A DNA stretch of 42,984 bases from an uncultured Bacteroidales bacterium. Lineage in GTDB: Bacteria > Bacteroidota > Bacteroidia > Bacteroidales > Muribaculaceae. Within the stretch, counting starts at the first letter, position 1. Each line of letters begins with the position of its first letter. A program made the translations under genes and the position numbers. This document shows, piece by piece, positions 214-11,821 of the stretch. The stretch is from the NCBI GenBank assembly GCA_902796035.1, contig CADBNR010000030.1:1-42984 (forward strand). The letters run 5' to 3'. The notes under the pieces are model-generated. The model searched no databases. It was not told where the DNA came from and saw only the letters and a program-made list of their open reading frames with translations.

Positions 214-3200
214 CTATTTATTGGCTGTCATGGCATCAATGAGATCCTGATAACAGGTAACTTTGTGGTAGTGAACGGATTCAGTGGAAATTTCGTTGAA
301 CAGTTGCGTACAACAGTCAATTTTAGCATTTTCTATTGCGTTGAGCTGCATTGATTGTAGCGAGCCTTTGGTCTCAGCGATAAAGAAAATGTGTTTGACA
401 TTACCTTTCTGCATAGCAATCGCCCAGTCGGGAGCATAACTGCCGACGGGTGTAGGTATCTGGAACGAGCGCGGCAGCTTCGCGTAAACCACGACTTCGC
501 TTGCCTCGTCGAGGTCGTGGGCGAAGTTGCGCTCACCGAGACTGTCGGAAACAACATAGTCGGTTACGTGCTTGGTTGCCTGATATGCTTTATCAAATTC
601 CGCTTTGCTTGCAGCAGTGAAAATGTTGGAGTCATAAGTGCCATCTGTAAGATGGTAGTGGATATGATCTACAATCATTGTTGCTTTCTGCTCCCGAATA
701 ATCTGAACGACTTTGCGGATAAATTCTTCGGGGTTGTTGCGGAACAAAGCGAGCTTAGAAGGACGCAGACCTTGAAGAATCTTGGCGGCGGTGCGACGTG
801 TAATGTTCGCGCCCTTTGCCACCTGTCCGATAAGGTCGTATTTTACCGAGGAAGTGCTGACATCGGTCAACTCTTGTGAGGTCGATTTTGTATCGCCGAA
901 CTCTGTTACTTCCTGGGCGTCCTGTTGTCCTTCAATCTTAATATAGCGGAGAGTGCGAACTTGCAACTCGTCCGTGTTAAGATGAAGAACCGACTGCTTG
1001 ATCAACTCGTCAGAGTTGTAGCTGACGGTGTAAACATACTGATGGTTGATGGCTTTCCATAGAGCCTGAAACTCATCGCGATAGAAATTGGCGTTGAGCT
1101 TCGGCTCCGGTAATTTCGTCTTCGCTCCGTTCTCTGTCATGCCGTCAAGGAGAGACGGGTCAAAGATAGAGTCGATAAGGCGAGTAACACCCTCGGCCAT
1201 CGGTTGGAGCTTTGCACCAAGAGGCGCGAGCGTACCGGCTTCGCGGTCTGCATGATACTTCGGGGTTATGTTGCCAGATTCGTCAACATAATCATTATCC
1301 TCAAGATAGACCATGATACGGTTTGCCTCGCGGTCATTGATGACGTAGGGCTGTCCGTCGAGTATAATTGTCTTACCCTCGAAATAGTCAGAAGTCGCTT
1401 TAGATGCACGTTCACGCAGAGCCTCGCGGGTTTCACGCTGGAGAGCCGAAGTAAAGTCAGAGTAACTTTCATTGGCAATGACCGTCAACACATTTATGTT
1501 GTGGACTTCCTCGCCGAGCAATTCCTTGTCCTGACGAATGCCGTTGCGGTCTACACAGATACGCAAGCCTCGTCCAACTTCCTGACGTTTGGCGGTGGTT
1601 GAATTGCTGTGGCGAAGCGTACAGATTTGGAACACGTTGGGGTTATCCCAGCCCTCGCGGAGCGCGGAGTGAGAGAAGATGAAGCGGGTAGGCTCGTCGA
1701 AACTCAATAGACGTTCTTTGTCGCGAAGAATGAGGTCGTAGTCCGATGCTTCTTCCGACACGTCGGAGCCGCGCTTAGTTTTTGTTTCGACCATCTTGCC
1801 TTTCTTGTCAATGGAGAAGTAGCCGCGATGCACCTGATACGGATAGAAGCGGCGCAGATACTCGTTGTATTCCTCATCGAAGATGTGGAATTCGTCATTG
1901 ACAAGACGCGCGTATTCTTCCTCGAAGATAGTCTGGAACACTCCCTTTTCAGGTGCTCCGTCCTTGTCGTAGCGACGGTATTTAGCGACTTCGTCGATAA
2001 AGAAAAGCGACAGACACTTTATGCCCTTTTTGAAAAGCTGACGTTCCTTCTCAAAGTGGGCTTTGATAGTCTCGCGGATCTGAACGCGCTGCATGTGCAG
2101 TTCGTTCGTGTCGCCCACGAGGTCGCCCTTACGGAGGGTAACTCCGTTGGTGAACGTAACGTAGGCAGTGGGCTGAGTATTTGAGCCGGGGAAAATCTCG
2201 GCAATATCATAGCCCTTGTACTGGAGCAGTTCGTTGGACTCGACGTAGAGCGAATCACCGACACCGAGGGTTTTGAAATGACGGCGAGGCTCACCGGCGG
2301 CATTCTTGACCTCGATGCAAATACGTGCCATCGGGGGCTTGCTCGGTGAGAGGATAATGTTTTCGAGATACATATATCCGTTGGTGCCTCGCAGGTTTTT
2401 CAGTTCAAAACCGATAACCTTGATGCGCTTGACAAGACGCTCGCGGTAAGCGTCGAGAGCGTCGAGTGCATATACAGTGTCGTGTTTCGTGCGGTGAGTT
2501 GCAGAATAGTTCAAAACGAAAAGCGGGTTGAACTTTTTGAGTGCCGTCTGCGTAGCGGCACCCTCCATCTTCTGCGGCTCGTCCATGATGATGATTGGGC
2601 GGTTGGCGGCAATCACGTCGATAGGACGGCGAGAAGCGAACTCGTCACGCTTCGAGTAAATGATACGGCTTTCTTTTGAGCGTCCCCCCTCTTTTAGGGA
2701 AGCGGCAAAAGCCTGGGTATTGATAATCATCACATTCAGTCCCGCATCCTGCGAGAACTGGTCGAGCTGATTGAGGTTCGAGCTGTTGTAGACAAACCAA
2801 CGGGCTTTCTTTCCGTAATGCTCCATGAAGTGTTCTTCGAGCATACGGAAAGACTTAGCCACGCCTTCGCGGATAGCGATGCTTGGCACAACGATGATGA
2901 ACTTCGACCAGCCATAGAGCTTGTTAAGTTCAAACATCGTCTTGATGTAGACGTAGGTCTTACCCGTGCCGGTTTCCATCTCCACATCGAGGTTGACGGC
3001 ACCGAGTCCGTCAATCTTGGTCAAAGATTTGGAAAGAGGTACTCCTGCCGAAGTCTGCACCGAGTGAAGATTGTCGAGCAGTTGCTTGGCGGAAAGTTCC
3101 ACGTCAGCATTACGGTAGCCGTCATCGTCACCGTCGAAGCGAAAAGTACCTTTTTGCTGACGGCCCAGGTCGCGGCGGTAGTGAGTGCCGTCGCGATTTG

Positions 3201-3276
3201 GTTGCCCGGTGAAGATGGCGGTAGTATTGTTGACCGCATCCGTCTGATAGCCCTGAATCTTAAACTTGAATTTCAT
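214..3276 (-). CDS. res: Type III restriction enzyme Res subunit (DEAD-like helicase plus PD-(D/E)XK nuclease)
   Basis: ATP-dependent restriction subunit (1020 residues) of a type III restriction-modification system. With Mod it recognises asymmetric sites, moves on DNA using ATP, and cuts unmodified DNA. Visible in order: a Q-motif-like GYQTDA (9-14), Walker A TGTGKT (102-107), the DEPQ box typical of Res proteins (232-235), a later helicase motif HSALREGWDNPN, and an arginine-finger motif QEVGRGLR. The C-terminal endonuclease is marked by APDW (PD at 949-950) and ETKG (E968, K970), the PD...ExK pattern of this family. Length is normal for Res and no break is seen. It starts 5 nt after the mod stop, so the two are co-transcribed and probably translationally coupled. 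Family knowledge supports the function; the recognition site cannot be read from the sequence. Confidence 0.93.
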   Translation of the reverse strand: MKFKFKIQGYQTDAVNNTTAIFTGQPNRDGTHYRRDLGRQQKGTFRFDGDDDGYRNADVELSAKQLLDNLHSVQTSAGVPLSKSLTKIDGLGAVNLDVEMETGTGKTYVYIKTMFELNKLYGWSKFIIVVPSIAIREGVAKSFRMLEEHFMEHYGKKARWFVYNSSNLNQLDQFSQDAGLNVMIINTQAFAASLKEGGRSKESRIIYSKRDEFASRRPIDVIAANRPIIIMDEPQKMEGAATQTALKKFNPLFVLNYSATHRTKHDTVYALDALDAYRERLVKRIKVIGFELKNLRGTNGYMYLENIILSPSKPPMARICIEVKNAAGEPRRHFKTLGVGDSLYVESNELLQYKGYDIAEIFPGSNTQPTAYVTFTNGVTLRKGDLVGDTNELHMQRVQIRETIKAHFEKERQLFKKGIKCLSLFFIDEVAKYRRYDKDGAPEKGVFQTIFEEEYARLVNDEFHIFDEEYNEYLRRFYPYQVHRGYFSIDKKGKMVETKTKRGSDVSEEASDYDLILRDKERLLSFDEPTRFIFSHSALREGWDNPNVFQICTLRHSNSTTAKRQEVGRGLRICVDRNGIRQDKELLGEEVHNINVLTVIANESYSDFTSALQRETREALRERASKATSDYFEGKTIILDGQPYVINDREANRIMVYLEDNDYVDESGNITPKYHADREAGTLAPLGAKLQPMAEGVTRLIDSIFDPSLLDGMTENGAKTKLPEPKLNANFYRDEFQALWKAINHQYVYTVSYNSDELIKQSVLHLNTDELQVRTLRYIKIEGQQDAQEVTEFGDTKSTSQELTDVSTSSVKYDLIGQVAKGANITRRTAAKILQGLRPSKLALFRNNPEEFIRKVVQIIREQKATMIVDHIHYHLTDGTYDSNIFTAASKAEFDKAYQATKHVTDYVVSDSLGERNFAHDLDEASEVVVYAKLPRSFQIPTPVGSYAPDWAIAMQKGNVKHIFFIAETKGSLQSMQLNAIENAKIDCCTQLFNEISTESVHYHKVTCYQDLIDAMTANK

Positions 3277-3281
3277 AGGGC

Positions 3282-5180
3282 TTACAGGATTTTACGGATG
3301 GTATCGGGTGAATAGTGACGGAAGATTTGCTCGAAGTTGTCAAGGACATTGTCATTGGCGGCGGAAGCGTCACGCATTACGAAGTATTGCGGCTTCATCT
3401 TCGCAATCTCCGTCACGGTAGACTCGTTCACGTCGGTATCGAAAGTAGCGACAAGGTAAGTGCCATCGACAAAGAACACCTTTTTGCCGTTAACTTCCTT
3501 CTCTTCGATTTTTGCTGACAGCTCTATATTGAGTTCCGGCATCACTTGGAAAAGCAAGTCGAGCGGGGTGCGGTCCGACTTCACGTTGTCAACGGTCGTG
3601 AATATATTCTGAGCGTCAAAGTTCTCAGGCGTATAGAACACGTCCTCCATGTTAGACGAGTCGAGTTTGAGGACCCGGAAGCCGATGTCGAGGTTTTGGC
3701 CGTTCAGACCCGCTTCCTCTTTTATTTTTTTACCTGCTCGGCGAATACGTTCCTCTCCGATTTGACAGATGGTTTCGTAGCCAGCCTTGCGTGCTTCGCT
3801 CTTTTCGTCAGTTACTTCGGGAAGTTGCACCATTATAAACTTACGATGCCCTCCATCCTCTGCATTGAGTTTCATTACGGCGTGTGCTGTGGTCGCACTG
3901 CCACTGAAGAAGTCAAGAACAATGTCCGTAGAGGAAAACTCGGACAATTTGATTAACTCGGCAATTAAAGTACGATTTTTCGGATTATCGAAAGGCAAAT
4001 CAATTTCTTTAATGATTTGCGAAACCTCAATATCCGTCCAGTTACTTGTTCGTAAGGTGGTGTCAGTTGGTGGAACCCAATGGTAGACACCTCCGTTCTT
4101 ACCTTTGCCATTAAGGTCACGTTTAATAAAATCGGTTATACCTGTTTTCTCAGAGTATTCCTCTAATGTCATTTTCGATGCAAATTCTCTTTGGTATTTT
4201 TTGAAATTTGCAACTGCAATATCCGCTTTTTCTTTCGAGCTACGCCATTGACCTGTCTCAGGTGTAAACCCTAATACATCATAGCGCATTGTAGGTCTAT
4301 CCGCATTACTCCAAAAACCTTGCCATTGCCCTTCAGTTTTAGCCACGGCCTTTTTCTGTCTAAGTGCCCGCATAACAAAATCTTTTGATTTTGCATAAAC
4401 TAAGACGTATTCAAATCCTACGTTAAGAGTTTGGAGTCCATTATCAGCAAACTGGGAATTAAGGCTTTTAACTCTGCGACGAGTTAAGATAGTATTGCGA
4501 AAATTTGAAGCACCAAAAATTTCGTTACAAACACGACGCATATTCTCCAGCTCGTTATCGTCTATGGATATAAAAATTACACCATCATCAGATAATAGGT
4601 CACGAGCGACTTTCAGACGAGGATATATCATATTGAGCCAGTCAGTATGAAATCTACCGTTGCTTTCAGTGTTGCGTTGCATAGGGTCTACAACCTGATT
4701 GCCGTCTTCATCGAAAAGTCCGCTTGTCTGTTCAAATTCCTCTTTACCCTGTGCGAAGTCATCGTTATACACGAAGTCGTTGCCGGTATTATAAGGGGGG
4801 TCAATATAAATCATCTTGATGGCACCAAGATAGTTCTCACGTAGAACTTTCAGCACATCAAGATTATCGCCCTCGATATAGAGATTTTCGGTGTTCCAAA
4901 AATCAACGGAAGCATCGAGGTCTGGACGCAGAGTTTTGTCGGTTTCTTCATTGGCGAGACGGGATGCAGCACGTTTATCAGGCCATGTGAACTGATAACG
5001 TTCTTCTGCCTCGTCGAGCAAGTCCTTCGACAACTCATCGCGGAGTTTGTCGAAGTCGATGGCAAGTTCGGCGGTGCCGTCCTTGCTTATCCGCTCAGTA
5101 ACGCATTGAGGGAACAAAGCGGCTATCTTAGCCACATTGCCATCCGAAGCGTCAAGAGTTTTCATTTTCAATTTTTCCAT
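3282..5180 (-). CDS. mod: Type III restriction-modification Mod subunit, beta-class N6-adenine DNA methyltransferase
   Basis: Methylates adenine in the recognition site and gives the Res complex its sequence specificity. The protein has 632 residues. The catalytic motif IDPPYNTGND lies at 126-135 (DPPY 127-130), and the SAM-binding motif DFFSGSATTAHA comes later, at about 423-434. This motif order (catalytic first, SAM-binding second) is the beta class used by type III Mod proteins. The region between them, about residues 225-400, would hold the target-recognition domain, and its DNA (about 3950-4510) is clearly more AT-rich than both ends of the gene. The ATG at 5180 lies inside the end of the upstream gene (13-nt overlap); a second ATG five codons later is an alternative. 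No simple-sequence repeat that would cause phase variation is visible. Confidence 0.94.
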   Translation of the reverse strand: MEKLKMKTLDASDGNVAKIAALFPQCVTERISKDGTAELAIDFDKLRDELSKDLLDEAEERYQFTWPDKRAASRLANEETDKTLRPDLDASVDFWNTENLYIEGDNLDVLKVLRENYLGAIKMIYIDPPYNTGNDFVYNDDFAQGKEEFEQTSGLFDEDGNQVVDPMQRNTESNGRFHTDWLNMIYPRLKVARDLLSDDGVIFISIDDNELENMRRVCNEIFGASNFRNTILTRRRVKSLNSQFADNGLQTLNVGFEYVLVYAKSKDFVMRALRQKKAVAKTEGQWQGFWSNADRPTMRYDVLGFTPETGQWRSSKEKADIAVANFKKYQREFASKMTLEEYSEKTGITDFIKRDLNGKGKNGGVYHWVPPTDTTLRTSNWTDIEVSQIIKEIDLPFDNPKNRTLIAELIKLSEFSSTDIVLDFFSGSATTAHAVMKLNAEDGGHRKFIMVQLPEVTDEKSEARKAGYETICQIGEERIRRAGKKIKEEAGLNGQNLDIGFRVLKLDSSNMEDVFYTPENFDAQNIFTTVDNVKSDRTPLDLLFQVMPELNIELSAKIEEKEVNGKKVFFVDGTYLVATFDTDVNESTVTEIAKMKPQYFVMRDASAANDNVLDNFEQIFRHYSPDTIRKIL

Positions 5181-6862
5181 GTATTATGTTGTTTAATTTT
5201 AGACATAAGATGTGAAGAAGTAAGTGGATATTTTTGCTTAAGATACTCCGGGAAAGGCTGCATGAAACCGAACAGCCGATCTAAAACAGATGAACTCTTG
5301 GAGTGCTTTTTTATTTTTGAAAAATAGTCTCTTACAATTTTTTCAAAAGATTTATTTGAAAATAAATCTGCATATAATATTAAAGTATCTATGTCAATTA
5401 TTAGCAATTCTGAAATAGCTTTTGACACAATACCTTGTTGTTGTAATTCATCAGAAAAATATCTATTAAGAATATATGTTATGCCATAATTGAGATAGTT
5501 TTGGTTTCCTAAAACTAAAACTGGATAAATACGCTTAGGATGTGCTTTCTTATCCCAAATAAAATCCTCATCAATTAATGCTTTAACATTCGTGGCTAAT
5601 TGCTTTATTGCGCCAGCTCGGCCATTGTTTTTTTCAACGAATTGTGAATAAAGATAATTAGACACGACTTCATATGATAGTGATGTCTTCTCTTTGGCTC
5701 TAAAACTATAATCCTTTAGTTCAAAAAGGAAACACGATGACCAGTTTCGTACATAAAAATCTGGTGCTGACTTTTTTTGAATTTTATCACATTCTTCACC
5801 TGAAAGAGAGAAAGGACTATCAGGATATACACTTTTTTTGAGTAAAGGGAATAATAATATTTTTTCCGAAAAATCTGTTGATATAATTTTTCGAACTTTG
5901 TCGCCATTCCCAAAAGCTTCTGAAAGGTCAAAAATTAGACTTTGGTATAATTTACCAAACAAAAATGGGAGGCATATAACTATATACTCATATTCAGAGA
6001 CACGGATAAGAGGGTGCGCTCTAAAGTATGAATAATCGACATTATTGCTCTCATCAATCGTGCTATTTATTGAAATGGATAATTCATTGAAAAACTTAGG
6101 AGCTGGGTCACTATCAGAAAATACAAATCGACAATAGTGCACTTTACTATTATATGATTCAATAAATATTCCACATATCATTGAGATAAATGTGCGGGTA
6201 TCGGTGCATCCATATTTATCAAGCACTTTTTCAAGGCAAGGAGCCAATTCGCGATGAGACGCACAAAATTCTAAGAATAAAGTGGATTTGTAAACATATA
6301 CCAGTGGCGAAGTGAGAATATCAAAGTTGCTATAATCACTATTTTCGACTAAGGTAGCAGCAACTCCATTTGCTATGATATCCTTAGCTGTATCGATGTC
6401 GGCATTTTCGTAATTATCAGGTACACTAATATTTGTTACTATGCGTTCATTCGTCAATAAAAGAATGGTGAACAAATTAGCTCCCTTGATCTCTGCTCCG
6501 TTCTGAATTTTATCAAAGTTCCACGGGGAATGAGGACCTGAATTACATAACAAAATTTTGAGTAATTCAAGTCCCGTCTGCATACAGACAAGATGATGTT
6601 CTGCAATACTTTCATAGATTCTGTTTAGTTCTCTATCAAGGAGATGTATAATTTTTTTCCCTTTATCGTGTGGGAACAGACGAGAACAAATTTCATGATA
6701 ACCTGATGATAGTTTCCTATCATAAATAATTTCTAAAGCTAAATAAACAAGTTCAAGACGATCAAAGCGACATATAAGATTTTGGATATCAGGCAATGTG
6801 TCAAAGCCAAAATCTTTGAAATGAATTAGTATATTAGGTTGAATGAGACCTCTGTTTATCAT
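5168..6862 (-). CDS. Unrecognised protein embedded in the type III operon, with PD-(D/E)XK nuclease-like signature
   Basis: I do not recognise this 564-residue protein by overall similarity. Near residue 367 it has SAPDFYVRN followed at 378-384 by FLFELKD, which gives D368...E381-x-K383. This is the spacing and hydrophobic-strand context of a PD-(D/E)XK nuclease core. A helix with Q421 (AIKQLATNVKAL) follows, as is common in that fold. No signal peptide or clear membrane segment is seen. The N-terminal 350 residues look mixed alpha/beta with no motif I can name. The gene is much more AT-rich than its neighbours. It starts with ATGA on the DUF4391 stop (4-nt overlap) and ends 13 nt inside mod, so it is a true member of the operon. 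A second nuclease or an accessory specificity factor is an inference from motif and context. Confidence 0.85.
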   Translation of the reverse strand: MINRGLIQPNILIHFKDFGFDTLPDIQNLICRFDRLELVYLALEIIYDRKLSSGYHEICSRLFPHDKGKKIIHLLDRELNRIYESIAEHHLVCMQTGLELLKILLCNSGPHSPWNFDKIQNGAEIKGANLFTILLLTNERIVTNISVPDNYENADIDTAKDIIANGVAATLVENSDYSNFDILTSPLVYVYKSTLFLEFCASHRELAPCLEKVLDKYGCTDTRTFISMICGIFIESYNSKVHYCRFVFSDSDPAPKFFNELSISINSTIDESNNVDYSYFRAHPLIRVSEYEYIVICLPFLFGKLYQSLIFDLSEAFGNGDKVRKIISTDFSEKILLFPLLKKSVYPDSPFSLSGEECDKIQKKSAPDFYVRNWSSCFLFELKDYSFRAKEKTSLSYEVVSNYLYSQFVEKNNGRAGAIKQLATNVKALIDEDFIWDKKAHPKRIYPVLVLGNQNYLNYGITYILNRYFSDELQQQGIVSKAISELLIIDIDTLILYADLFSNKSFEKIVRDYFSKIKKHSKSSSVLDRLFGFMQPFPEYLKQKYPLTSSHLMSKIKQHNTWKN

Positions 6863-7458
6863 ATCAATTCTTTTAGCTTTTGAATTTCAAGAAAAAGTTC
6901 TCTTTTCCGGCGTGGCTGCTTGGTGGCGTTCATCTGACGCTCCAATGCAGCAATTTGGCGGAGACGTTTGTCGTGTTCTTCATCGACCTTAATTTGCTCG
7001 GTGAGCGACTTGTCTTGCTCGACCGAGAATTGACCGATAGAAGAAACGATAGACTGCCATACGGCATCAAGATTGAGGCCGGAAAGCCCAACTGTGGCAG
7101 AGTCCAAAGACTGCCACGTAGAGATAAATAACTTTGAGTGGTACACGGCAAGCATAGCCTCATCCTCGAAATGTAGGAGATATATTACGCGCTGCGGAAT
7201 ACTTTTAGCAAGAAGAACGATATTCTTAGGGTCAAAATCGCGAGTTTTGAGCGTGACTTCAATAACAAATATCTCCTTGACCTCTGCTCCTTCGGCGATA
7301 ACCGGAAGTGTACGAGGAGCAATCCAGTTAACGAAGTCAATGCGAGAAACGTCGCCATCGAAACTTTCACGTTGCGATGGTTTCCAGTCGAACCGCTTAA
7401 ATAACTGCGACTTAGGAAGCGGTCGCTTGACTTCTGTGGATTGTGGCAGACCTAACAT
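6859..7458 (-). CDS. DUF4391 domain protein of the restriction/helicase operon
   Basis: A small protein (199 residues from the ATG at 7458) of the DUF4391 type, which I know as a companion of SNF2-like helicases and type III-like methylase genes in bacterial defence loci; its biochemical role is unknown to me. The start MLGLPQSTEVKRPLPK fits the usual N-terminus of the family and lies one nucleotide after the helicase stop. A TTG four codons upstream (7470) would also be open. A beta-rich core (about 40-110) contains EIFVIEVTLK and RVIYLLHFED, and the C-terminal 45 residues are a charged helix likely to form a coiled coil. It overlaps the next gene by 4 nt (ATGA). Its conserved place between helicase and methylase suggests an adaptor or regulatory part of the complex. 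Confidence 0.82.
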   Translation of the reverse strand: MLGLPQSTEVKRPLPKSQLFKRFDWKPSQRESFDGDVSRIDFVNWIAPRTLPVIAEGAEVKEIFVIEVTLKTRDFDPKNIVLLAKSIPQRVIYLLHFEDEAMLAVYHSKLFISTWQSLDSATVGLSGLNLDAVWQSIVSSIGQFSVEQDKSLTEQIKVDEEHDKRLRQIAALERQMNATKQPRRKRELFLEIQKLKELI

Positions 7459-7459
7459 A

Positions 7460-10400
7460 TTATCGGACAATCAGAAAACATATTAACTCGAAATCGTCGA
7501 GGCCACGAACATCGTTGCCGAAAAGCGAGCCGCTATCGCCGTCGAGGAACGAAAAGAGGTCGGTGGATTCCTTGACCTTGATTAGTGACGAGATGGCATC
7601 GCCCAGTAGACGGGAGTAAGTACCCATACGCTGACCGTCGCGAGTCTCGGCATTGAACTTGCGGCAAAGGTCGAGGATAGGCTCGGACTTGCCTCGGCAA
7701 AGATGACGCATCCGGTCAAGGAGGTCTTTCGGGTCGAGGTGATCAACAATCACCTCCGAGTCCTTCGAGATATAGACCATATAGAACGGGTGAAGCCTGT
7801 TCTTGCGGTCGATGTTGATTTCGTTGTTGCGATTTTTGAGAACGAAAATCACACCGGAAGGCGCGTCTTGTGCCGACGGCACAATGGCATGGAGTCCGTG
7901 GGGAGTATGTTCTATGTCGTGGTTTTCACGCATATAGTCGAGCAAGTCAAGGCGGAATTCATTCAAGCCCAGGTCCATTATAGAGACGCCAGAATTCATT
8001 TCCTCAATATCGACGACTTCTTCTTTGAGTCGTTCCAACTGATCACGGCGATATTTGAGGTCACCCTGTTCTTCGGCCGAAAGCGGGTTGTCATCGCCGG
8101 TGGCGGTGAGAACCGATACTTTCATGCGAGCCTCGACACGACCTTTGAGATTGATGTAATCGTCAAGATCCATGTCGGGCCAATAATTGACCAACTGGAT
8201 AACCGCGTTGCGCGAGCCGATACGGTCGATACGACCGAAACGTTGGATGATGCGCACGGGGTTCCAGTGAATGTCGTAGTTGATGAGGAAATCGCAGTCC
8301 TGGAGGTTCTGACCTTCCGAGATACAATCGGTGGCGATAAGCACATCTATTTCCTCATCAAGGTTTGGATAAAGCGCAGACTTTTCTTTGGAGACGGGCG
8401 AGAAAAGTGTCAGGACTTTATTAAAGTCCATTTTCTCGCGGAGTTTGAGTGTAGAACGAGCTTCAACGTCTCCCGACACCAGGGCTGTGTTCAGCCCGGT
8501 ACGCTCCTTTATGAGCGGTGCGATGTTCTCGTAGAGATACTGAGCAGTATCGGAGAAGGCGGTGAAGACTATAATCTTTTTGTTGTCGCCATTTATTGGA
8601 TTGGCAAACTTATTGCGAATGTCCTCAATGAGCATCTGCAGTTTGCTGTCATGTTCAGGGGTGATGTCGGCAAGCATGAACAGCAACGTGTTCAGATTGT
8701 CGAGGTCTTTGGCAAGATAGCTGCGCCACTGAACATAATCCATATCCTCAAGCGCGATCTTCGTCTTCCTGTTACCGATGAAAACTGTGTCCTCCCTTTC
8801 GTCAAAGTCAAGGCCGTAAGAGAAATCATAGTCGCAGACCATTGAAGATTCATGTTTGGAAGCAAGGTCGTCAATGGCATTTATGGTAGCTTCGATATAT
8901 TTCCTGATTCGTTCAAGTGTAAGCCTGAAGGAGTTGACAGAACTTTCAAGGCGTTTGAGCAGGTTGATGCTCATAAGTTGCCTGATGCCACGTTCACGAC
9001 CACTGCGAGATAGATTTCCGAAGCGTCCGTCTTCGCGCACCTCCATGTACTTCTCCAGCTTGCTCGGCAAGATGAAGTCGGAGGGCGTGTAGATAGCGAG
9101 ATTAAGCTCGCTGACACTGACGAAAATATCATTGAAGCTGACCGCAGTAGGCAGGTCAGTAAGTTTCGGGGCACGGGAGATTGGTTTCAATCTCTCCGGG
9201 AACTTACCAATATCGGTAGTATCGTAATATTGCTCGATGTGCTTGCGCGAGCGAGCAATGGTAACGCTGTCGAGAACTTCAAAGAAATCGAAGCTCAACA
9301 TTTCAAGCAATGTCTTTGTAGTGCGCTCCTCGGCAGGGAGTTTGGACCAACGATTGAAAGCGGTCTGCGCCTGACGGAAAATATCGTCGAGCGAACTTGA
9401 CGTTTTGAGCTGCGCGTCCATAATCGAGCTGTCGCCCTCGTAAGCGAGGGCAAGCTGATTGCGCAGGTCATTGAAGCGATTGTTGACAGGGGTGGCTGAC
9501 AACATGAGCACCTTAGTCTTGACACCGGCCCGGATAACCTTGTTCATCAACTGGAGATAGCGGTTCTCGCGCGGATTCTCGTCGTTCTCGTCGGTGGTGA
9601 CTTTGCCGCCGTTGCGGAAGTTATGGCTCTCGTCTATGACCACGAGGTCATAATTGCCCCAGTTTATATGTTCGAGGTCGAGGCCGTTGCTTTGACCGGA
9701 CTGACGCGAAAGGTCGGTATGATAGAGAATATCATATCGCAGACGGTCGGCGACAAGTGGGTTATTGACGTAGTTGCTACGGTAAGTAACCCAGTTGTCA
9801 TGCAGCTTCTTCGGGCACAGGACGAGAACGGACTTGTTTCGGTTCTCGTAATACTTGATGACCGAAAGAGCGGTGAATGTCTTGCCGAGGCCCACGGAGT
9901 CAGCGAGAATGCAACCGTTGTATTTTTCCAACTTGTTGATGATGGCGAGAGCAGCGTCGCGTTGGAAGTTGTAGAGCTTGTTCCAGATAACGCTCGACTT
10001 GAAGCCGGTAGCTTCGTTCGGAAGCACATCTTCCGAAATGTCTTCGAGAAACTCATTGAAGATATTGTATAACGTAACAAAGTAGATAAACTCCGGGGAG
10101 TTTTCTTTGTAAGCGTTAGTGATGTTGTCAAGCACTTCTTCTGTAACGACCTGCAGTTTTGCACTGTCGTACCATACCTGATCAAACAGATTAAGATAGA
10201 ATTGCGACAACGGCGCATCTGTACGTTGAACAAACTGATATGCATTGTTCCCTCGTTCGCAGCCAAGGTCAACTGTCGTGAAGCCGGTTATCGGCATATA
10301 GTTGGTTTCATCTACGTTGATGAAACCCATCATATTCTCGTTGGTGCGGTTGGATTTGAAGCAGACTTTTCTACGAATCCAGTCAGCGCACTCTTTAGCG

Positions 10401-10705
10401 ACCGCCTTGAGCGACAATTCGTTGCGTAGTTTTATCTCAAATTCCGAACCGAAGAGGTCTCGCTCTCTATTGAGTCTCGGAATATAGAACTCCCTCCGCT
10501 GTTTGTCGGTTTTTTCAGTAATAAAAGATGGCGATGTAAATATAAAGCGCAACTCATCAATATCTTTCAGCTGCTCCCTGAGTTCCTGAAAGGCATATAT
10601 TGAGAAACTTGCGGCGGCAATAGACACACGACTACCGGATTTGATAGTAGCTACCAAATCATCACGCAGTGTCTGATTGACGTTATCAATGAGTTGAGGT
10701 TGCAA
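7460..10705 (-). CDS. SNF2-family helicase with PLD-like N-terminal region
   Basis: First gene of the defence operon, 1081 residues. The helicase core is clear: Walker A ILADSVGLGKT (266-276), Walker B VVIDESHNF (DESH 358-361), motif III LMLSATPVNN, then the second RecA domain with ATDCISEGQNLQ and a motif VI of QRFGRIDRIGS. This arrangement is that of SNF2-like translocases in defence systems such as DISARM-like and type III-associated cassettes. The first 180 residues (SIAAASFSIYAFQELREQ, then FIFTSPSF) resemble the phospholipase-D-like module often fused to such helicases, but I see no intact HxK motif, so it is probably non-catalytic. The start is TTG: the frame has a stop three codons upstream (TGA at 10712-10714) and no ATG near the N-terminus. 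It overlaps the 7470 TTG of the DUF4391 frame and ends 1 nt before its ATG. Confidence 0.88.
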   Translation of the reverse strand: MQPQLIDNVNQTLRDDLVATIKSGSRVSIAAASFSIYAFQELREQLKDIDELRFIFTSPSFITEKTDKQRREFYIPRLNRERDLFGSEFEIKLRNELSLKAVAKECADWIRRKVCFKSNRTNENMMGFINVDETNYMPITGFTTVDLGCERGNNAYQFVQRTDAPLSQFYLNLFDQVWYDSAKLQVVTEEVLDNITNAYKENSPEFIYFVTLYNIFNEFLEDISEDVLPNEATGFKSSVIWNKLYNFQRDAALAIINKLEKYNGCILADSVGLGKTFTALSVIKYYENRNKSVLVLCPKKLHDNWVTYRSNYVNNPLVADRLRYDILYHTDLSRQSGQSNGLDLEHINWGNYDLVVIDESHNFRNGGKVTTDENDENPRENRYLQLMNKVIRAGVKTKVLMLSATPVNNRFNDLRNQLALAYEGDSSIMDAQLKTSSSLDDIFRQAQTAFNRWSKLPAEERTTKTLLEMLSFDFFEVLDSVTIARSRKHIEQYYDTTDIGKFPERLKPISRAPKLTDLPTAVSFNDIFVSVSELNLAIYTPSDFILPSKLEKYMEVREDGRFGNLSRSGRERGIRQLMSINLLKRLESSVNSFRLTLERIRKYIEATINAIDDLASKHESSMVCDYDFSYGLDFDEREDTVFIGNRKTKIALEDMDYVQWRSYLAKDLDNLNTLLFMLADITPEHDSKLQMLIEDIRNKFANPINGDNKKIIVFTAFSDTAQYLYENIAPLIKERTGLNTALVSGDVEARSTLKLREKMDFNKVLTLFSPVSKEKSALYPNLDEEIDVLIATDCISEGQNLQDCDFLINYDIHWNPVRIIQRFGRIDRIGSRNAVIQLVNYWPDMDLDDYINLKGRVEARMKVSVLTATGDDNPLSAEEQGDLKYRRDQLERLKEEVVDIEEMNSGVSIMDLGLNEFRLDLLDYMRENHDIEHTPHGLHAIVPSAQDAPSGVIFVLKNRNNEINIDRKNRLHPFYMVYISKDSEVIVDHLDPKDLLDRMRHLCRGKSEPILDLCRKFNAETRDGQRMGTYSRLLGDAISSLIKVKESTDLFSFLDGDSGSLFGNDVRGLDDFELICFLIVR

Positions 10706-11090
10706 TATGGGTCAATCGCTCTCGCAGCCATTGACTCCAAATGGCGAATTAGATTGGTTTATATAAACGAAAAGCGGGAGCCTACCAAGCTCATTCCGCC
10801 TTCAGGGTCGTAGGAAATACCATTACCGTGGAACGAGCAATGGCAGACACCCCGCGAAGCATGAATATGTAATCATTCCAACCCATTCCACAAACAGGGA
10901 ATAAGTCGGAACCACATAAACGCTCCCAAGGGCATCTACAATTGCTTCATTCTTGACGGTAAATTCAAAATTTCCTACGTTTTGAAGGCCAAGAAATAAA
11001 GCGTTGTAAACGCCTTTCGTATGTAAAACGAACCGCCCAATACCCGGTGTTAATCCTCCTCTGAGGTACCGCGCATCGCGAGGTTCAAGG
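10706..11090 (-). other. Leader or repeat-like element upstream of the helicase gene; no convincing gene
   Basis: About 385 bp between a strong promoter match and the TTG of the helicase. On the minus strand two short frames are open: one at 10823-11095 without an early ATG, the other ending at 10759-10761. Neither dominates, which argues against a normal gene. Two consecutive hairpins are visible: ACGAA/TTCGT (11016-11020 with 11028-11032) and GCGTT/AACGC (11001-11005 with 11009-11013). I have a weak, unverified memory of similar translated sequence recurring in Bacteroidales genomes. It could be a structured RNA, a long 5' leader, or a copy of a dispersed repeat. Confidence 0.45.
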
Positions 11091-11122
11091 CAAAATTAAT
11101 GAAAAAATCCGCCATGTGCAAA
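11091..11122 (-). promoter_or_regulatory. Bacteroidetes-type promoter upstream of the defence operon
   Basis: On the minus strand TTTG (11119-11122) and TAATTTTG (11091-11098) are separated by exactly 20 nt, a full match to the TTTG-N19/21-TAnnTTTG consensus of the Bacteroidetes primary sigma factor. Transcription would begin near 11085 and run through the hairpin-rich element toward the helicase gene. Confidence 0.7.
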
Positions 11123-11129
11123 AAAATCA

Positions 11130-11166
11130 CACGATCTTTTGCACGATCTTTTGCCACAATCTTTTG
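11130..11166. repeat. Three copies of a 12-bp direct repeat upstream of the promoter
   Basis: CACGATCTTTTG occurs at 11130-11141 and 11142-11153, and a one-mismatch copy CACAATCTTTTG at 11155-11166. The copies sit just upstream of the -33 box at 11119-11122 (minus strand), about one helix turn apart, where an activator or repressor could bind. They may also be a chance slippage product. Confidence 0.6.
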
Positions 11167-11288
11167 CATATAGAAAATAACCGATGTGGAATGAATAGTG
11201 ACGAGTGTGGCAAGAAGGACTTACCCATAATATATCCATGTTAGGTTTTTCAACATCTCATGCAAAATCCAACATGAGGGAGAACAAC

Positions 11289-11321
11289 AAGGGTGCGCCG
11301 GCAGATTGCGGGCGCACCCTT
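11289..11321 (-). terminator. Hairpin terminator of the nusB-DUF5606 operon
   Basis: An 11-bp perfect stem, AAGGGTGCGCC (11289-11299) with GGCGCACCCTT (11311-11321). On the minus strand it is followed by TTGTTGTTCT. It lies about 60 nt after the stop of the DUF5606 gene, the last gene of the housekeeping operon. Confidence 0.75.
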
Positions 11322-11383
11322 ATGATATAGCATCGGCTTGGCTGATGTGAATTCTGTATTAGATACTTTGGTCCTTCTTAGGG

Positions 11384-11821
11384 TTACTCGGCTTTGTCCT
11401 CGGCGGGTGTCTCGGCGTCGGAAGTGTCGGCGGTGTCCTCGACGAACTTGGTGAAGCCGTCGGCCAGGAGGATGTTGTACCATTTGTAGAGCTTCTTGAT
11501 GTCGCGGTCGCGGACGCGGAGGCGGTCGTAGTCCGTTACGACTTCTCCGAATGACTGGTGAAGCTGCTCGGAGTTCATCGAGTCGCCGTCAATAGGCTGG
11601 CCGCCGGTCTTGTCGTAAAGCATCTGCATGATCTCGGCAAGCGGGGTGTCTCCGCTTTCGGTGTACATCGAGATGTCGCCCAACGATACCACCTGGTCGC
11701 GCGAATGAACCGGGAAACGACGCTTGGTCTCTACATCCTCAACTATCAGGGTGCCACGTCCCTGGCTCAATATCTTCTGCAGTCCGGGCTTGCCCGTGAT
11801 CGAAATGATTTTCTTTAACAT
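11384..11821 (-). CDS. DUF5606 family protein
   Basis: A 145-residue protein that I recognise as the DUF5606 family, found broadly in Bacteroidetes with no established function. The conserved N-terminus MLKKIISITGKPGLQKILS is followed by a small beta domain (about 1-60, LIVEDVETKRRFPVHSRDQV) and a helical second half (about 60-130) ending in an acidic tail. It has no signal peptide or membrane segment, so it is probably cytoplasmic. It is the last gene of the housekeeping operon, 65 nt after coaE, and a strong hairpin follows. No separate promoter is visible in the 65-nt gap, so co-transcription with coaE is likely. Confidence 0.85.
   Translation of the reverse strand: MLKKIISITGKPGLQKILSQGRGTLIVEDVETKRRFPVHSRDQVVSLGDISMYTESGDTPLAEIMQMLYDKTGGQPIDGDSMNSEQLHQSFGEVVTDYDRLRVRDRDIKKLYKWYNILLADGFTKFVEDTADTSDAETPAEDKAE

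Follow-up and report, generated by a model that had tools for sequence, protein, structure and literature searches.

The window analysed here, one whole contig of 42,984 nt (CADBNR010000030.1 of assembly GCA_902796035.1) from an uncultured Bacteroidales bacterium of the Muribaculaceae, carries on its reverse strand an operon of five open reading frames (ORFs), which is a type III restriction-modification (RM) system with an accessory motor and an embedded cargo gene. Four of the genes form a conserved chassis and encode, in this order, a PLD-like/SNF2 helicase, a DUF4391 protein, a type III methylase (Mod) and a type III restriction subunit (Res). The fifth encodes a protein of 564 residues, here called U564, and lies between the DUF4391 gene and mod, an interval that we call slot A; slot B is the interval between mod and res. 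A noncoding stretch upstream of the helicase gene has the features of a structured leader RNA (Table 1). From the helicase to Res the ORFs overlap by 11, 4 and 13 nt and are then separated by a gap of 5 nt, in agreement with the shared strand and tight junctions described in the initial annotation; the region beyond Res (position 214) lies outside the visible sequence.

Table 1. Features of the operon and its upstream region in the window
Feature	Position	Strand	Basis
Predicted promoter, TTTG-N20-TAATTTTG	11091..11122	-	TAnnTTTG box conserved across leader copies
Candidate structured leader RNA, ~385 nt, reaching the helicase start codon	10706..11089	-	16-sequence alignment, covariation, folding z, copies in relatives
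Leader 5' domain (model R1: hairpin and small hairpin)	10992..11088	-	R1 model searches
PLD-like/SNF2 helicase, 1081 aa, TTG start, chassis gene 1	7460..10705	-	PADLOC C3a139
DUF4391 protein, 203 aa, chassis gene 2; alpha/beta domain and C-terminal long helices	6859..7470	-	PF14335, model
U564, 564 aa, cargo gene in slot A; predicted PD-(D/E)XK nuclease of an unnamed family	5168..6862	-	Motif, model
PD-(D/E)XK core of U564, residues 320-451: E333, P367-D368, E381-x-K383, Q421	5510..5905	-	Invariant residues, model
Type III Mod, 632 aa, chassis gene 3; DPPY at 127, FSGSA at 425	3282..5180	-	PADLOC, motifs
Type III Res, 1020 aa, chassis gene 4; GTGKT at 103; C-terminal endonuclease domain PF19778	214..3276	-	PADLOC, Pfam, motifs

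The helicase is matched over nearly its full length by the PADLOC "HKD+Snf2" model C3a139 (E = 5.5e-119), Mod by MTase_III (E = 6.5e-198), Res by REase_III (E = 1.8e-283) and the DUF4391 protein by Pfam family PF14335 (E = 5.5e-32). In Mod, DPPY precedes FSGSA, which is the motif order of the beta class and fits a type III enzyme. Res has, besides GTGKT, the motifs SAT (258) and ETK (968) and matches PF19778 with an E value of 4.6e-30; it combines a superfamily 2 (SF2) motor with a C-terminal PD-(D/E)XK endonuclease, as expected of a type III Res. The two translocases and one methylase counted earlier are indeed present, as two SF2-type motors and one Mod. The window helicase lacks HxK in its first 235 residues, and its PLD-like domain is therefore unlikely to work as a nuclease. 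HxK is also absent from 9 of 11 aligned orthologues, but this does not extend to every relative, the helicases of loci L081 and L077 having HVK (129) and HDK (180), respectively. The DUF4391 protein gave a confident structural model (pLDDT, 94.1) that matched no PDB fold at E ≤ 0.001.

Searches with the helicase at E ≤ 1e-60 returned 32 of 393 genomes of the order, roughly a third of them with more distant helicases of 33 to 38% identity, as well as 102 plasmid records, 11 of which were chosen for the chassis count, and at least 74 viral-collection loci, which derive from the best 80 of 102 matches and likewise served for that count. Stricter cut-offs gave 19 of 101 relatives (E ≤ 1e-100) and 8 of 395 class genomes (E ≤ 1e-150). 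For DUF4391, a match was obtained in 27 of the 395 phylum genomes searched and was above the cut-off in 24. Eleven aligned helicase orthologues, one from an archaeal plasmid, are 40 to 75% identical. Counting a chassis as complete only if its genes lie on one strand in the order helicase, DUF4391, Mod, Res, we found 78 among the 152 loci examined (Bacteroidota, plasmids and viral contigs); the other 74 failed, many through contig ends. The search for the ordered gene set that had been suggested in the initial annotation thus recovers the four-gene set widely, and U564 inside it in 1 of the 78. The chassis is bare in 31 loci and holds extra ORFs of at least 90 aa in 47, situated between helicase and DUF4391 in 9 loci, in slot A in 31 and in slot B in 33. 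Extra ORFs were present in 7/7 loci of the genus, 8/10 of the order, 2/3 of the class and 8/9 of the phylum, in 2/11 plasmid loci and in 20/38 viral ones; in total, 109 such ORFs fell into 83 similarity clusters. Bare four-gene sets occur on annotated plasmids of Escherichia coli, Enterococcus (E. faecalis), Leuconostoc, Methylotuvimicrobium and Mycolicibacterium.

Within the genus of the window the helicases are 77 to 91% identical (a further copy, in L223, 66%) while the slot genes change from locus to locus, and therefore the content of the slots turns over faster than the chassis. The cargo genes named by Pfam or PADLOC encode a DUF4365/Aga-type restriction endonuclease, an HNH protein, an AbiEii-like ATPase with DUF6577, a KAP NTPase with a pentapeptide protein, ORF6N, DUF2971 (PDC-S31), SIR2, RhuM, Schlafen/AlbA_2, Abi_2, YhcG, Fic, zeta toxin, AbiGi and AbiJ. 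Many names of neighbouring genes were assigned by eye; those on which we rely were verified. The initial annotation had considered that the U564 gene might occur in this one strain only. It is not so confined, as genome G043 has a U-family gene in the same slot (85% identical over the 80 visible residues) and genome G012 a version that is 24 to 35% identical, the other chassis proteins of these two genomes being 60 to 90% identical to those of the window; most chassis relatives do lack the gene. On contig G804:C9 a chassis with other cargo (L078) and an independent U564 homologue (L104) lie some 21 kb apart.

U564 itself has no family match in Pfam or NCBIfam, and none of 34 members of its family matched Pfam at E ≤ 0.01; a PDB search by sequence gave nothing at E ≤ 1. 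A PADLOC assignment to JetB was rejected, as it concerned a single one of the 34 members with an edge score (E = 0.0041). Homologues were found in 6 genomes among 101 relatives, in 9 among 393 genomes of the order and, by a genome-collection scan with two short peptide patterns, at 51 loci, all of them Bacteroidota according to the record titles. Forty-seven full ORFs were thinned to 32 and aligned with the partial sequence of L132 and the window protein (alignment A8, 34 rows). Despite identities of only 17 to 32% to the window protein, E333, D368, E381, K383 and P447 are invariant in 34 of 34 rows, and P367 and Q421 are nearly so. In the AlphaFold2 model of U564 (pLDDT, 87.0; pTM, 0.88), whose N-terminal half is mainly helical, a helix with the glutamate is followed by the aspartate and the ExK on adjacent strands, which is the order of elements of the PD-(D/E)XK core. 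The sequence and the topology thus both agree with membership in the PD-(D/E)XK superfamily, the motif being kept in divergent sequences. The first ten PDB rows obtained with the model, all non-significant (E values of 0.036 to 0.37, query-normalised TM scores of 0.16 to 0.21), are BspD6I chains (nickase or subunit) and Can2, which we take to have the PD-(D/E)XK fold; later rows include R2 proteins, Hjc, LmuA and unrelated chains. From the motif and a confident PD-(D/E)XK-like model we predict that U564 is a nuclease of this superfamily and that its family, so far without a name, is one of Bacteroidota, and the nuclease-like character suspected in the initial annotation is borne out to this extent.

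The surroundings of the family were examined at 61 other U loci, 50 from the 51 scan loci (L132 equals L009) and 11 from other searches; L104/L146 and L107/L154 are the same two genes counted twice. None of the 61 has a chassis within 8 kb, a more distant SNF2 protein (202 bits) being present in L012, and 41 have no same-strand neighbour of at least 100 aa within 50 nt. In six Aequorivita loci (L143, L148, L152, L157, L158 and L159) a protein of about 265 aa is encoded 10 nt 3' of the U homologue, possibly a two-gene version. A phage-borne origin was considered and dropped: the phages collection gave no match and the viral contigs none with the single-protein query. With alignment A7 as the query, two viral contigs (L298 and L299) were found to encode U564 relatives of 26 to 29% identity. 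U564 is best read as an autonomous nuclease recruited as cargo.

Upstream of the helicase, the noncoding stretch is 69.7 to 76.8% identical over 368 to 429 nt to sequences in nine other loci of the same genus, and a 58-nt match to it is found upstream in L220. In an alignment of 16 copies (A12) the consensus structure has 85 pairs, with 97.2% of the cells paired. Changes on both sides of a pair affect 21 pairs and 73 cells, compared with at most 13 pairs and 22 cells when the partners are slid by 1 to 3 columns; none of 500 shuffles reached the observed values on four measures and 20 of 500 did so on further pair types, figures that are to be read with two limits, that this alignment also yielded the structure and that its sequences are related. 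In helix 6, two-sided changes are seen in all seven pairs. For the window copy the folding energy is −167.8 kcal/mol, whereas 100 shuffles average −113.7 kcal/mol (standard deviation, 5.3; z = −10.1). Rfam gave no match at gathering score in the window and none at E ≤ 5 for positions 10600 to 11384. A TAnnTTTG box precedes 21 of 23 leader copies or candidates, against 2.7% of random 68-nt stretches from the same loci, and in 9 of 23 it is accompanied by an upstream TTTG at the right spacing (background, 0.26%); the copies in this count are related and hence not independent. We take TAnnTTTG with the upstream TTTG to be the Bacteroidetes promoter consensus. The box stands at −8 to −12 from the start of the 5' domain in 20 of the 21, and at −21 in L210, whose start is trimmed. 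The spacing between the 5' domain and the following start codon (the first start of the ORF) likewise varies little, being 366 to 389 nt in 13 of 17 measured cases, the outliers being L326 (300 nt), L330 (321 nt), L074 (434 nt) and L010 (847 nt). Inspecting the alignment by eye, we considered a two-hairpin switch close to the start codon but do not claim it here.

A DNA search of 61 relatives located the leader in 20 genomes, with 25 matches; genome G023 has three copies. Of the 14 matches of at least 300 nt, 8 lie before a chassis helicase and 4 before another HKD-SNF2 helicase, one precedes a helicase remnant of 117 aa followed by mod (L325) and one is at a contig end. Where the contig continues, in 3 of the 4 cases, the other helicase is followed by a type IIG enzyme (tested with PADLOC in L327, judged by a similar start in the other two). 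This second helicase operon was seen in L326, L327, L329, L330 and L333; it has an HKD-SNF2 protein of about 1135 aa, the same leader upstream (in L333 its 3' end only) and, where the contig continues, the type IIG enzyme and a protein of about 150 aa. The 11 shorter matches include that in L331 (G027:C68), where the 5' domain scores 82 bits and stands before a four-gene Zorya operon (ZorA, ZorB, ZorC and ZorD by PADLOC); in G021 the 3' end of the leader stands before an HKD-SNF2 helicase, and in G010 and G013 the 3' hairpin, together with weak 5'-domain matches (24.1 and 19.3 bits), precedes an HKD-SNF2/type IIG-like pair (tested in L335). For the other seven, no defence operon was recognised immediately downstream, or the match was not placed. 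In L221 a leader copy stands directly before mod. Outside the genus, a search of 84 plus 76 loci with model R1 gave, besides the window and L331, only weak matches in L336, L074, L010, L335, L340 and L169, the last of which was rejected since a transposase-like ORF (named by eye) encloses it; among 154 genomes of the order the model found only the window and one weak match (L343/L344). Two of the weak matches in other families are near defence genes: that in L074 (26.2 bits) is at about the expected place before the same chassis, and that in L010 lies 847 nt before a type II RM pair. Partial blastn matches in L332, L334, L338 and L339 have no recognised adjoining defence gene (a zeta-toxin-like ORF, named by eye, follows further on in L338), and L337 and L341 gave no leader match on re-examination. 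We conclude that this is a real structured leader, which is concentrated 5' of helicase-led defence operons in the genus of the window.

The reading that we favour, and hold to be probable, sees in the operon an extended type III RM chassis of four genes that carries an optional, swappable effector gene under a folded leader RNA. It is carried by the gene order and its conservation, the turnover of the cargo, the catalytic motif and the covariation in the RNA, all of which are observed directly. In our model, Mod and Res would act as in other type III systems, recognising unmethylated DNA and cutting it, as their homology suggests, and the SNF2 motor and DUF4391, a conserved accessory pair, may load, remodel or clear DNA for restriction. 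U564, whose family usually lies outside RM operons, would be co-expressed with the chassis from slot A and serve as a back-up defence; the slots of relatives are occupied instead by genes for SIR2, zeta toxin, RhuM, Schlafen, YhcG or Abi proteins. The unit would be transcribed from the promoter upstream of the leader, and the leader, common to other helicase-led restriction operons in the genus, probably controls their expression. More tentatively, we propose that the leader may be a new cis-acting regulatory RNA family common to several unrelated anti-phage operons of one gut-bacterial lineage (SNF2-DUF4391 type III RM, SNF2 with type IIG, and Zorya), which would act as a single RNA-level switch, with the type III chassis as a socket for interchangeable effectors.

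Several points weigh against this picture. We infer, rather than observe, the activities of the proteins, the back-up role of U564, the use of the promoter and regulation by the leader. No PDB chain matched the U564 model at E ≤ 0.001 (best E, 0.036), the U gene of G012 is divided between two contigs, and at 20 of the 61 U loci a same-strand gene does lie close by, so that not all are solitary. Some of the slot ORFs counted (short or on the opposite strand) are perhaps not genes, and of 30 cargo ORFs tested against Pfam, one of which (third batch) sits after res, 9 had no match (3/10, 2/10 and 4/10 per batch). Four of 13 chassis helicases of the genus with enough upstream sequence (L214, L219, L220 and L223) lack a full leader. 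Finally, lipoprotein-like genes (named by eye) follow the weak leader matches in L336 (G014:C56; 26.9 bits and a blastn match) and L344 (G100:C6; 30.1 bits), and therefore the leader RNA family may be broader than defence.

That all five proteins form one obligate defence complex, in line with the single system that the initial annotation had thought possible from their tight junction overlaps, is very improbable: with 31 chassis bare, U564 in only one of 78, other slot genes in relatives whose helicases are 77 to 91% identical, and no chassis within 8 kb at any of the 61 U loci, this idea is largely refuted. It would also be possible to see U564 as a guard that is kept inactive by the Mod/Res or helicase complex and freed when a phage blocks restriction, by analogy with PrrC and its type I RM partner as outlined in PMC3710099. 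In favour of this, U564 is embedded with start/stop overlaps, and a few of its homologues lie near other methylases, adjoining HsdM in L153 and an Eco57I/TaqI_C-type enzyme in L111 and two genes off an N6_N4_Mtase in L110. Yet only 5 of the 61 U loci have an NPPY/DPPY-type protein of at least 250 aa within 8 kb (contig ends limit this count), and because none has the chassis in that range, the U family does not need an RM partner; we regard the guard as unlikely.

As for the leader, its long, nearly unbroken hairpin would also suit a DNA element, that is, a palindromic mobile element or recombination scaffold whose copies let defence genes swap by homologous recombination. The presence of several copies per genome before different operons (three in G023) speaks for this, as do the copies directly before mod (L221) and before a helicase remnant and mod (L325). 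A DNA element would not, however, account readily for the set distances to the promoter-like box (8 to 12 nt in 20 of 23) and to the start codon, or for the many G-U pairs on the operon strand, which are A-C on the opposite strand, and we consider it rather doubtful. The window cassette might, finally, be one of the published m4C type III systems. Murray et al. 2021 (PMC8259958) describe such three-gene systems (Eco86II and BspHIV) in more than 500 genomes, with an extra SF2/SNF2 ATPase gene 5' of mod that is dispensable for methylation and whose product was not detected in the active preparation. The window operon resembles what is described there in having an SF2/SNF2-like gene 5' of mod and res. 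For the Eco86II helicase (E. coli NCTC86, 963 aa), however, the alignment with that of the window is confined to the helicase core (two stretches of 185 columns, 31 to 32% identity), Mod aligns at 26% over 171 columns and 36% over 72, Res gives no significant match, and DUF4391 is not annotated at the Eco86II locus. With a longer helicase, a DUF4391 gene and Mod and Res of another subfamily, the window chassis is not an Eco86II cassette, Eco86II being the sole m4C locus compared, and an identity with the published three-gene systems has very little to recommend it.

The favoured chassis-and-cargo reading also sets the operon apart from other known systems. In classical type III RM enzymes such as EcoP1I and EcoP15I, the complex is Mod2Res1. 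The window operon is like these in the DPPY and FSGSA motifs of Mod and in the Walker A motif, helicase core and C-terminal endonuclease domain of Res, and unlike them in the PLD-like/SNF2 and DUF4391 genes added upstream, the slots for variable cargo and the structured leader. DISARM, which is presumably marked by DrmB (DUF1998) beside the DrmA helicase, was rejected, as Pfam found no DUF1998 among the five proteins and the DrmD/DrmA models gave only partial helicase alignments. Type-2 BREX-related (BR) systems, as presented in PMC12839542, have an HKD-SNF2 helicase beside a methylase, embedded auxiliary nucleases, DUF499 and DUF3780. The window shares with that description an N-terminal HKD/PLD domain fused to an SNF2 helicase near a methylase and a predicted nuclease embedded in the locus; an assignment to BREX or BR was rejected, as PglZ, DUF499 and DUF3780 have no Pfam match among the five proteins, a further gene beyond Res being possible at the contig end.

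It is already established that RM and BREX loci can have defence genes embedded in them. In type I RM operons this is described for DarTG2 and PrrC in PMC12255303 and PMC3710099, respectively, and PMC12988326 cites Payne et al. 2024 for "guilt-by-embedding" candidates. The operon agrees with the DarTG2 and PrrC cases as given there in having an autonomous effector gene inside an RM operon; it differs in that the host operon is an SNF2-DUF4391 type III chassis and the U564 family lacks a convincing PADLOC match. The initial annotation had allowed that the full gene set might already be a named system; we found no name for it, and among the 5.39 million open-licence papers searched DUF4391 appeared in one, in an unrelated table. 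A specialist would be surprised by the unnamed family of predicted nucleases and, most of all, by the leader RNA that different operons share. One chassis that can be traced across phyla with dozens of alternative cargos is a natural trap for new effectors, and U564 is an example of an effector missed by the libraries searched here. If the leader is functional, RNA-level control would be common to different defence operons; the defence-island regulators that we encountered in the literature, RptR and the WYL family, are proteins. A search of open-licence literature, by title and start of the abstract, for structured RNAs heading defence operons returned nothing on this leader.

The chassis also occurs in altered forms. 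The mod region is in pieces, interrupted or trailed by more methylase pieces, in Listeria, in Acinetobacter NEB149 and on a Lactococcus plasmid, and Aeromonas and the archaeon Methanomethylovorans have additional genes within the set. In L081 and L082, which are not among the 78, the order is Res, helicase, DUF4391, and L082 has a 315-aa gene between Res and helicase. In L220 (G040:C40) a helicase 77% identical to that of the window is joined to Mod, Res and DUF4391 proteins of a more distant subfamily, a pattern that would fit recombination between the front and back halves of the operon.

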